Part shown: one piece after another, positions 56,777-59,090 of the stretch
How positions within the stretch are numbered: position 1 is the first letter of the stretch
Layout: each line of letters begins with the position of its first letter
Assembly: GCF_030128825.1 (NCBI RefSeq)
Contig: NZ_CP119127.1
Location: 2,852,001-2,916,000 of the forward strand
Direction of reading: 5' to 3'
From: Sphingobium sp. WTD-1
GTDB lineage: Bacteria > Pseudomonadota > Alphaproteobacteria > Sphingomonadales > Sphingomonadaceae
DNA: 64,000 nt
Position numbers and translations under genes: made by a program
The notes under the pieces: model-generated
Seen by the model: only the letters and a program-made list of their open reading frames with translations
The model's database searches: none
Told to the model about the DNA's origin: nothing

Positions 56777-57445
56777 ATGGCATGGAGCGGCATGACCCAG
56801 CCTTTCATGACCATCGATGCGCTGCTGATCGGTATGCCCCGGCCCTTTCGCGATGACGAGCATAGTGCCATTGGCAAGCTGCCGGTCGCTGGCCCGATCC
56901 GCATCAACTGGCTGGGGTTCGCGGGCGACGGGGTGGCCGATACGGTCCATCACGGCGGCTGGGACAAGGCGATCCATCTCTATCCGCAGGACCATTATGA
57001 CTGGTGGCGGGATCGCAAGCCGGATCATCCACTGCTCGAAGCGCCCGGCGCCTTTGGCGAGAATATCGCCAGCCGCGGCATGACAGAAAGCGAGATCTGT
57101 CTGGGTGACCGGTTCAGTCTGGGCAGCGCGGTGGTGGAGGTGAGCCATGGCCGCCAGCCTTGCTGGAAGCTTGACCATCGTTTCGGCGCCCGCGACGTGA
57201 TGGCGACGATCGTCAAGACCGCGCGCTGCGGCATCTATTTCCGGGTGATCCGCGAAGGCGAGGCGGAGGCCGGCACACAGATGGGGTTGCTGGAGCGGCC
57301 CTTGCCCGACTGGAGCATCGAGCGGGTCTTTCGCCTGCTGATCGGCGGCGGGCACAAGGCCGATCCTGATGCGGTGCGCGCGCTGGCGGAGATGCCGCAA
57401 CTGGCCGAAGCCTGGCGCGAACGGGCGCGCAAGCTGGCGGCCTGA
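56777..57445 (+). CDS. MOSC domain protein (YiiM-like)
   Basis: 222 aa; molybdenum-cofactor sulfurase C-terminal domain. GDGVADTVHHGGWDKAIHLY, GAFGENIASRGM and SHGRQPCWKLDHRFG (with the conserved Cys) mark the YiiM group, thought to handle Mo-cofactor-linked detoxification of N-hydroxylated compounds. Start ATG 56777, or ATG 56792. Confidence 0.9.
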   Translation: MAWSGMTQPFMTIDALLIGMPRPFRDDEHSAIGKLPVAGPIRINWLGFAGDGVADTVHHGGWDKAIHLYPQDHYDWWRDRKPDHPLLEAPGAFGENIASRGMTESEICLGDRFSLGSAVVEVSHGRQPCWKLDHRFGARDVMATIVKTARCGIYFRVIREGEAEAGTQMGLLERPLPDWSIERVFRLLIGGGHKADPDAVRALAEMPQLAEAWRERARKLAA

Positions 57446-58142
57446 TCGGCAGAGCCCGGATCAGGGCACAGATCATTTTGTCTACATGTCAAAGAGCGGG
57501 AAGGCTAGGCCGGCAGAGGCGTTGTAGGACAGCGAAAAATGCGGTCGGGCATCGTCGCGCTGACGCTCGGCCGACACGACAATGGATTTCCTACGAAGTT
57601 CACAGTGTCGTCGGGCGATTAGGCCTCTGATGCGCTCGTGACGCATCGATAACGCGCCACTCACGCGTCCATGACGCGACAGTCAGGCAGAAATTCGGGT
57701 CACCGCCGCGCGCCATCGACGCGACAGCCGGGCGACACCGAAGCGACTGTATGGAGAGCGAGAGACAGCGTGCGGGGAAGCTTTCCATCATCGGAGTAGA
57801 TCATGCCTGGCCCGAATAGGAAAGGTCGGCTCTTTATGACCAGAAGCTGACGTTCCGAGTTCCTCCCCAAGCTTGCTTGGGGAGTTCAATGGAGACACGT
57901 GTCTCCATTGGACAGCGCGAAGCGCTGACGGAGGGGCAATGGCGCGACCTCATCTACTTGCCCCTCCACCGCCTTCGGCGGCCCTCCCTCTCCAAGCAAG
58001 CTTGGGAAGGATCTCGGACGTTCCGCAAACCACCCAATATCGCCATCGAAGCAAAAGGTTGCGCGCATAAGAGGAAGCGCTGGCATGCTCAAGGCACCCG
58101 CCTTCAGGCTGTCGACAACAACGTAGGAAAAGGAAGAGACCC
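57446..58142. other. 697-base intergenic region with a MITE-like element
   Basis: No protein gene is convincing; a 63-codon frame at 57600-57791 (minus) is arginine/serine-rich without a ribosome site. The left 400 bases are rich in GCGAC/GACGCG words with no clear structure. The right part holds the element at 57856-58016 and the ybeX terminator. Confidence 0.6.
57856..58016. mobile_element. MITE-like non-autonomous element, 161 bases
   Basis: Terminal inverted repeats of 29 bases, 26 identical (57856-57884 and 57988-58016), start CGAG and contain CCCAAGCTTGCTTGG. They are flanked by the 7-base direct repeat GACGTTC (57849-57855 and 58017-58023), a likely target duplication; nine bases match if the first CG is counted outside. 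The interior is packed with perfect hairpins: CTCCCCAAGC-TT-complement, a 24-base palindrome at 57887-57910, CAGCGC-GAA-GCGCTG, GGAGGGGCAA with its complement at 57958-57967, and CCGCC-TTC-GGCGG. No coding capacity. Confidence 0.75.
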
Positions 58143-58155
58143 TCAGGCCTCTTCC
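58132..58155 (-). terminator. terminator overlapping the end of ybeX
   Basis: On the minus strand GGAAGAG, a ten-base loop and CTCTTCC are followed by TTTTCC; the left arm lies in the last ybeX codons. Ends the miaB-phoH-ybeY-ybeX operon. Confidence 0.7.
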
Positions 58156-59090
58156 GCTTCCAGCTCCTGTTCGACCGGCGGGTGGAGCCGCAGGCGGGTG
58201 ACGCGGCGGCCGTCGCTGGCCAGGATTTCCAGTTTCCAGCCGCTTTGTTCGTGCGGGATGATCTCGCCCGGTTCGGGGACGCGGCCGGCGAGCACGAAGG
58301 CGAGGCCGCCCAGCGTGTCGACATCTTCCTCGATCTCGCCCAGACGCGGGTCGATTTCCTCGGCCACATCGTCCAGTTCGGCGCGGGCATCGGCATCCCA
58401 CATGCCGCCTTCCAACGGCACCAACATCGCTTCGGGCGCGTCGTCATGCTCGTCCTCGACCTCGCCGACGATTTCCTCGACCAGATCCTCGAAGGTCAGA
58501 AGCCCTTCGGTGCCCGAATATTCGTCCAGCACGATGGCCAGATGGGTGCGCTTTGCGCGCATTTCGGCGAGCAGGTCGAGCGCGCCCATGCTTTCGGGCA
58601 CATAGAGCGGCTGGCGGATCAGCGGCGCCAGCGTGTCGGGCACGGGCGCCTTGCCGGCGAGGATCGCGAAGGCATCGCGGATATGGACCATGCCGACAAT
58701 CGTATCGAGCGTCTCGCGATAGACCGGGATGCGGCTGTGACCGGCCTCGGCGAACAGTTCGGCCAGTTCGGCAAAGCTCGCCTGTTCCTCGATCGCGACG
58801 ATGTCGGCGCGGGGCAGAGCGACGTCGTCGACCGTATGTTCGGAAAAATGCAGCAGGTTGCGGACCATCTGCCGCTCGATCGCGGACAGATCGCCCTTGG
58901 CAGGCGGGGCCGCGCCCTCTTCCTGCTCTTCCTCATCATATTCGTCGAGCGCCTCTTCCAGTTCCTTGCGGAGGCTGGGGGCTTCATTCTCGCCGAACAG
59001 GAGCGACTTCAGGCCGCTCCATAAACCGCCCTCGTTACTACTGTCCGCTTCCTTCGAACCGGCGCTATCCTTCGGGCTGCCTTCAGCCAT
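58143..59090 (-). CDS. ybeX: CBS-pair HlyC/CorC family protein (YbeX)
   Basis: 315 aa soluble CorC/YbeX type: an acidic N-terminal extension, tandem CBS domains (about 85-210: MVRNLLHFSEHTVDDVALPR, GHSRIPVYRETLDTIVGMVH, LAIVLDEYSGTEGLLTFED), and a C-terminal CorC_HlyC domain (GGLAFVLAGRVPEPGE). Linked to magnesium homeostasis and ribosome maturation in E. coli. Follows ybeY, and its last codons form a terminator stem. Confidence 0.92.
   Translation of the reverse strand: MAEGSPKDSAGSKEADSSNEGGLWSGLKSLLFGENEAPSLRKELEEALDEYDEEEQEEGAAPPAKGDLSAIERQMVRNLLHFSEHTVDDVALPRADIVAIEEQASFAELAELFAEAGHSRIPVYRETLDTIVGMVHIRDAFAILAGKAPVPDTLAPLIRQPLYVPESMGALDLLAEMRAKRTHLAIVLDEYSGTEGLLTFEDLVEEIVGEVEDEHDDAPEAMLVPLEGGMWDADARAELDDVAEEIDPRLGEIEEDVDTLGGLAFVLAGRVPEPGEIIPHEQSGWKLEILASDGRRVTRLRLHPPVEQELEAEEA

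Follow-up and report, generated by a model that had tools for sequence, protein, structure and literature searches.

A mosaic palindromic repeat between convergent genes of Sphingobium sp. WTD-1 and the palindrome nested in it

Among the described repeats close to the element treated here are BIMEs and REPINs, which consist of paired inverted REP units (as described in PMC3116915 and PMC2817692). A second group, the CGTC REPs, was reported by Di Nocera and others (2013, PMC3733652) mainly from alphaproteobacteria, with S. chlorophenolicum, S. wittichii and N. aromaticivorans among the named hosts, and is described there as having no dedicated transposase. The rule given in that report is a stem of 8–9 bp with A-T at the first and second position, a loop of 4–5 and a CCA tail. 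The CIR repeats of Caulobacter and Brucella are portrayed in PMC2229807 as about 110 bp long, with two arms, a linker and a GANTC site.

The element of this study is a non-coding stretch of about 200 bases in the 5.67-Mb genome of Sphingobium sp. WTD-1 (G000). We regard it as probable that it is one copy of a BIME/REPIN-like mosaic family of palindromic repeats which belongs to the Sphingomonadaceae and is located at the 3' ends of genes. The likeness to BIMEs and REPINs lies in the inverted hairpin units around a spacer, the intergenic location near gene 3' ends and the additional occurrence of single units. In contrast to them, the mosaic family has two hairpins per unit, feet made of C or G runs (CTCCCC/GGGGAG and GGAGGGG/CCCCTCC), exchangeable types of halves and no Y1 transposase in four copy-rich genomes. 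CIR repeats share the two arms with a linker, the intergenic location and the alphaproteobacterial hosts, a likeness judged by their description in PMC2229807 and not by sequence. With MITEs, which are treated in PMC10969869 and PMC2229807, the family has in common that it is short, non-coding and has inverted ends; it differs in that a target duplication is missing at the place proposed for it, in that modules are exchanged between copies and in that no parent is known.

The element and its borders

In the window, that is the whole 64-kb stretch of DNA that was analysed, the element follows a MOSC gene on the plus strand and precedes a corC gene on the minus strand and therefore sits between convergent genes. 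According to blastn against unlinked copies the repeated unit extends from about 57836 to about 58047, which makes the interval 57849..58023 given in an earlier note too narrow. The features are as follows, in positions of the window:

56777..57445, plus strand: gene for a MOSC domain protein, 5' neighbour (Pfam PF03473, E 4e-33)
57836..57862, plus strand: left outer frame, ATGACCAGAAGCTGACGTTCCGAGTTC plus 1–2 preceding bases, holding the first GACGTTC (blastn homology, 12-row copy table)
57849..57855, plus strand: first copy of GACGTTC, part of the repeated left frame (sequence, blastn homology, copy table)
57863..57884, plus strand: outer hairpin A, CTCCCC-AAGCTTGCTT-GGGGAG (repeat search, copy comparison)
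57885..57912, plus strand: nested palindrome (gamma module), TT-CAAT-GGAG-ACACGTGT-CTCC-ATTG-GA, with the perfect part at 57887-57910
57913..57927, plus strand: inner hairpin B, CAGCGCGAAGCGCTG, on the opposite strand CGTC-AGCGC-TTC-GCGCT (copy comparison)
57930..57936, plus strand: GGAGGGG, pairing with CCCCTCC at 57961-57967 (sequence and fold)
57937..57960, plus strand: variable spacer (copy comparison)
57961..57967, plus strand: CCCCTCC, pairing partner of 57930-57936 (sequence and fold)
57968..57982, plus strand: inner hairpin C, alpha half, ACCGCCTTCGGCGGC (copy comparison)
57988..58009, plus strand: outer hairpin D, CTCTCCAAGCAAGCTTGGGAAG, a relative of hairpin A, inverted as well as direct
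58010..58047, plus strand: right outer frame, GATCTCGGACGTTCCGCAAACCACCC plus some more bases, holding the second GACGTTC (58017-58023)
58143..59090, minus strand: gene for a CBS/CorC_HlyC protein (corC/ybeX), 3' neighbour (Pfam PF03471 and PF00571)

The earlier note saw no coding capacity here, and indeed the open reading frame that overlaps the element (57877-58605) has no match in a Pfam search. Two further observations concern the surroundings. By eye, positions 57795-57835 to the left (GTAGATCATGCC..GAATAGGAAAGGTCGG) look like a diverged repeat that is also present in L052, L058 and L176, and a terminator-like hairpin with a T-rich tail lies on the minus strand at the end of corC (58132-58155).

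The element is dense in hairpins. Complementarity reaches 90% over the 31 nt of its inverted arms (57854-57884 and 57988-58018), which bears out the 29-base inverted ends (26 of 29) noticed before. Perfect hairpins are formed by 57863-57872/57875-57884 and by 57930-57939/57958-57967, and the 24-nt perfect palindrome at 57887-57910 consists of a 16-nt core extended by 4 on each side; two further hairpins, 57913-57927 and 57969-57981, were read from the sequence and the predicted fold. Thus the stacked hairpins and the palindrome described earlier are present, but not all of the hairpins are perfect, as the one at 57987-58010 is only 82% complementary. The RNA fold of the 175 nt originally delimited reaches -113.1 kcal/mol, compared with -62.2 (sd 4.6) for shuffled sequences (z -11.0, none of 200 shuffles as good), and the DNA fold of 57836-58037 has a z of -9.3. 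Chance clearly does not explain these hairpins. A scan allowing up to 3 mismatches detected the outer hairpin at no other place in the window, and Rfam at the gathering score assigned no family to the element, the sole match in the window being a tRNA elsewhere.

The word GACGTTC on both sides had been taken for a target duplication of 7 bases. The direct repeat is in reality 9 nt long, GACGTTCCG at 57849-57857 and 58017-58025. A 7-mer is repeated at exactly this spacing at 48 of 63825 window positions, and the observer was free to choose the boundary; a direct repeat of 7 nt alone is thus the weaker evidence. A target duplication is expected to differ between loci and to lie outside the homology. 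In blastn, the homology with unlinked copies begins at 57836-57839 in L061, L053, L056, L058, L052 and L055 and at 57843-57844 in L015/L054, L057, L062 and L063; it ends at 58036-58047 in L052, L053, L055, L057 and L061 and before 58017 in L062. Both words hence fall within the homology shared by unlinked loci of close relatives. Furthermore, L053 of G016, a different locus, also has GACGTTC on both sides, so that this arrangement occurs with the identical word in two of the 12 rows of the copy table, the window and L053. The table comprises copies or single-hairpin remnants from 11 loci, since L015 and L054 represent the same locus of two genomes. Its left frame is related in most rows, with GACGT in 7 of 12, and is lost in L057 and L063, while the right frame is recognizable by CGGAC in 9 of 12 rows and is missing from L062. 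As GACGTTC lies inside the homology and the same word recurs at an unlinked locus, it is therefore no target duplication.

Make-up and distribution of the family

The copies follow a shared plan: TCCTCCCC, hairpin A and GGGGAGG, then GGGACC or TGGC, hairpin B, GGAGGGG, the spacer, CCCCTCC, hairpin C and finally CCTCCCC, hairpin D and GGGGAGG. A full copy consists of two inverted two-hairpin units about a variable spacer, often within short outer frames. Searching both strands by regular expression yielded 81 distinct family strings, orthologues counted. Most commonly one alpha half (GGGGGACC..GGTGGAGGGG) is combined with one beta half (GGTGGC..GACGGAGGGG); rarer are two alpha halves, or an alpha half joined to a beta half of the gamma form. 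In hairpins B and C the stem letters vary yet stay paired, i.e., these stems are compensated. Among 29 non-redundant elements with a beta or gamma left half, the 5-nt arms of hairpin B (readable in 28) are 91% complementary as against 65% after shuffling of the partners, those of hairpin C (readable in 25) 93% as against 80%, and none of 2000 shuffles reached either value. The same permutation test is weak for the outer hairpins, with 8 usable copies for A (value reached by 6 of 2000 shuffles) and 5 for D (430 of 2000).

The search for further copies suggested in the earlier note did find such copies. Matches at E <= 0.001 were found in 33 of 100 searched genomes, 31 of them in Sphingobium including the own genome, where the 175 nt recover one full copy along with several partial matches; the best copies are in G016 and G018. 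A covariance model built from 20 copies matches at least 26 times in G000, 50 in G016, 51 in G018 and 59 in G029 with both strands counted, which are lower bounds because 150 candidates were scored per genome. In G000 these represent at least 13 distinct places, the window copy among them. Within the Sphingomonadaceae, 108 of 249 genomes have the core pattern GGAGGGGN{12,42}CCCCTCCACC, and at the genus level this amounts to 49 of 96; in some of these genomes the reversed control pattern is equally high (e.g., G136 and G148). Of 115 genomes sampled across the class, 4 contain it; the own genome is one of these, and another is a member of the Sphingomonadaceae with a high control. Spread by plasmids was considered and set aside, with one partial match, in Sphingobium indicum B90A.

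How copies change can be seen at orthologous sites. We placed 20 flank pieces in G000 and its three nearest relatives, G016, G018 and G029, and compared 19 ortholog groups, one of which is represented in two genomes only and several of which have slots anchored by one flank only. The same element was met again in another genome in seven groups (L060, L069, L072, L073, L081, L082, L084). In three of the 19 groups a full element in one genome faces a single hairpin in another: the L081 slot is full in G000 and G018 and reduced in G016 and G029 (L204/L205), the L122/L124 slot is full in G016 and reduced in G000, and the L082 slot is full in G000, G029 and G018 (L082/L213/L214) and reduced in G016 (L215). 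These states match what is expected from deletion between directly repeated hairpins. At other sites the halves are swapped between two species (L073 versus L198), an outer hairpin is changed (L058 versus L177) or a differently composed element occupies the slot (L052 versus L059 and L070). Between L025 and L028 an 8-nt palindrome centre is inverted between two genomes; together with the swapped halves of L073/L198 we take this as a sign of inversion at hairpins. Thus, the family is a mosaic of exchangeable palindromic modules. At L062 the element is present in G018 and absent from G000, a candidate pair of an occupied and an empty site whose junctions are too diverged for a duplication to be read.

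The other slots are taken by different palindromic families, by CGTC-type REPs or by gene-like sequence, or show nothing similar. At shared slots G029 seems to favour CCCTGGAAGGG types (L174, L182, L188) and G018 CCCGTAAACGGG or CCCGCAAGCGGG types (L172, L178, L196). Apparently short genes are found in slots L176 and L082/L221 of G000, L190 of G016 and L191 of G000, and these gene-like slots share outer frame words (GACCAnnnGCGGAC, GGGTGGnnnGCGGAC) that elsewhere bracket palindromic repeats, so a cassette-like exchange at framed slots is possible. For the exact frame word GCGGACATTCC there are 8 occurrences in the genome and 0 for the control. Several of its contexts look coding, however, and we therefore rejected the outer frame as the end of a mobile gene cassette and do not claim a cassette system.

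A comparison of occupied and empty sites 3' of ybeX had also been proposed. It did not yield an empty site, since in G016, G018 and G029 this position is filled by other palindromic repeat families; within the 1.3 kb fetched from each of them the MOSC gene was not found beside corC. More distant Sphingobium genomes do have elements of the CTCCCC type, with another make-up, at the 3' side of corC (L108:2525-2654 in G102 and L109:1333-1461 in G026), and the one in L242, a named record, is letter-identical to that of L108. A regular expression detected a full CTCCCC-type element at 2 of 52 corC 3' sites (30 loci and 22 of 80 named ones), namely L108 and L242, but it misses diverged copies such as L109 and the window's own, which is picked up by its palindrome only.

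Gene placement, movement and origin

Regarding neighbouring genes, 38 copies were hand-picked from the regular expression hits and genes were called by a simple codon score. For 29 copies with a placement, 16 are between convergent and 13 between codirectional genes and none between divergent ones; as a baseline, the window has 62 pairs of neighbouring genes, of which 11 are convergent, 40 codirectional and 11 divergent (Fisher p 0.0005 for the convergent and 0.015 for the divergent placement). Six more copies have a gene on one side only, and three, from other genera, are within a called ORF, which is doubtful. This agrees with the convergent and unidirectional placement reported for REPs (PMC3733652). 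In its placement it behaves as a 3'-end element, lying after stop codons and often between convergent genes. RNA made from either flank would then contain very stable hairpins, and protection of mRNA 3' ends or reduced readthrough could follow. Placement after genes may also just reflect where insertions are tolerated.

One might go further and suppose a structured regulatory RNA or a bidirectional terminator maintained here to serve the MOSC and corC genes. The very stable fold and the position between convergent genes would suit such a role, which we nevertheless hold to be improbable, as no Rfam family is recognized at the gathering score, a T run is missing and the nearest relatives carry other sequences 3' of corC. 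A search for intrinsic terminators detected none with a T run inside the element; this identity was rejected, and a role in termination is at most possible. The interpretation in the earlier note, a MITE that has 29-base ends, duplicated 7 bases of its target and is mobilized in trans by the transposase of an absent parent, keeps some of its observations: the repeat is dispersed and non-coding, it has inverted ends, nested hairpins and a direct repeat, and several copies in G016 and G018 have similar ends. Against it stand the words GACGTTC within the repeat at unlinked loci and again, as the same word, at another locus, the exchange of ends, halves and internal hairpins between copies, and the result that none of the three nearest relatives has an unoccupied site 3' of corC. 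With the target duplication gone and no parent known, the defining proof of a MITE is gone too; with the borders proposed this reading is largely refuted, and we consider it very improbable.

Two inverted hairpin units with a spacer between them in intergenic DNA, accompanied by single units and single hairpins, also resemble a REPIN or REP doublet moved by a REP-associated tyrosine transposase (RAYT). But a GTAG tag was not seen when the alignment was checked by eye, and the Y1_Tnp profile (PF01797, RAYT-type), the only transposase profile searched, had no match in G000, G016, G018 and G029, all rich in copies. As the control search was positive in 5 of 14 named genomes and Y1_Tnp matches were obtained in 23 of 94 genomes of the genus, we regard mobility driven by RAYT as ruled against for these four genomes and this origin as quite improbable. 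Somewhat less remote, though still unlikely, is a derivation from the CGTC-tagged REPs, in which case the beta half would be a CGTC REP of reduced length. As described in PMC3733652 these REPs share with the family the alphaproteobacterial hosts including sphingomonads, the formation of dimers, the lack of a dedicated transposase and a similar placement. One strand of the beta half reads as CGTC, a short hairpin with A-T as first pair in most copies, and a CCA tail, given by GCCACC after the hairpin of beta copies, while gamma copies such as that of the window have the palindrome there; by eye, typical-looking CGTC REPs adjoin the element in several copies. However, the stem is about 5–6 bp and the loop 3, against 8–9 and 4–5, the second stem pair is not A-T, and the unpaired CGTC tag at the beta half is absent from the alpha half. 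The window's own hairpin, CAGCGC-GAA-GCGCTG, with 6 bp, a loop of 3 and G-C as second pair in the CGTC reading, departs from the CGTC stem rule. Moreover, the mosaic element is larger, with four hairpins, and CGTC-type REPs appear as its separate neighbours.

We therefore return to the mosaic family as the probable identity of the element. Orthologous sites show that copies swap halves and exchange hairpin modules, and the full and single-hairpin states there are those expected if the interior between directly repeated hairpins is lost until a single hairpin is left. Recombination, or copying through the hairpins, would cause such deletions and swaps, and new copies would need a mover other than a Y1 transposase of these four genomes.

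The nested palindrome

Sister copies have GTGG where the window element has its 24-nt palindrome. The gamma module follows the plan TT-NNNN-GGAG-(8)-CTCC-N'N'N'N'-AA with an 8-nt centre nCRCGYGn. In the same element at the same slot it is present in G029 (L069) and missing in G016 (L197), the remainder aligning almost letter for letter; at a second slot it is present in G018 (L214) and missing in G000 and G029 (L082, L213). The pattern GGAGNCNCGNGNCTCC was found at 26 places in the four genomes (5, 2, 11 and 8; control 0). When all loci were examined, 18 of 24 distinct instances had TT or AA outer ends, and in these the four-base stem has nine different 5' words and pairs at 100%, whereas shuffling gives 51% and the best of 5000 shuffles 75%. 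The remaining six are three instances at an apparently coding site, L339 and L343, whose ends differ, and L348, which is paired at 5 of 6. The apparently coding site is one and the same in the four genomes (L340, L341, L349, L351), has a stem extension of 1 and was set aside as chance.

The palindrome is not confined to the family of the window. It is nested in several other repeat families, told apart by eye, with a different but paired outer stem: the CCCCTCCCG family (L342, L352, L354, L172), the CCCTCCCT family (L345, L347, L348, L350), a CGTC-type REP (L335) and the GCGCAAAACC family (L339, L343), where the outer ends of the palindrome differ. The fully paired variable mid-stem, the several host families and the presence or absence at the same site make the 28-nt palindrome a separate module, conserved at the level of structure. 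From this we infer that it moves by itself, although loss from an ancestral copy would fit each single presence/absence site too. Tentatively, and with the balance somewhat against it, one may think of an independently mobile hairpin that is a parasite of hairpins: it would enter junctions of at least four host families in place of a short linker, be present or absent in sister species, have its mid-stem rewritten at different places yet self-complementary and possibly replicate by way of a folded single strand.

A direct repeat on either side of inverted ends counts as a target duplication only if the homology between unlinked copies stops there, and it was this homology that corrected a tempting misreading as a MITE. 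For the mosaic repeat family of the Sphingomonadaceae described here, as for the nested palindrome, our literature searches, judged by titles, beginnings of abstracts and term counts, found no published name. Since the four genomes without a Y1 transposase differ in what occupies a given slot, the spread of palindromic repeats can be studied here in closely related species. The most interesting part of the finding is the palindrome, whose function and mobility we can so far only propose: with a conserved plan and a variable but paired mid-stem, it is a test case for transmission at the level of structure and not of sequence.
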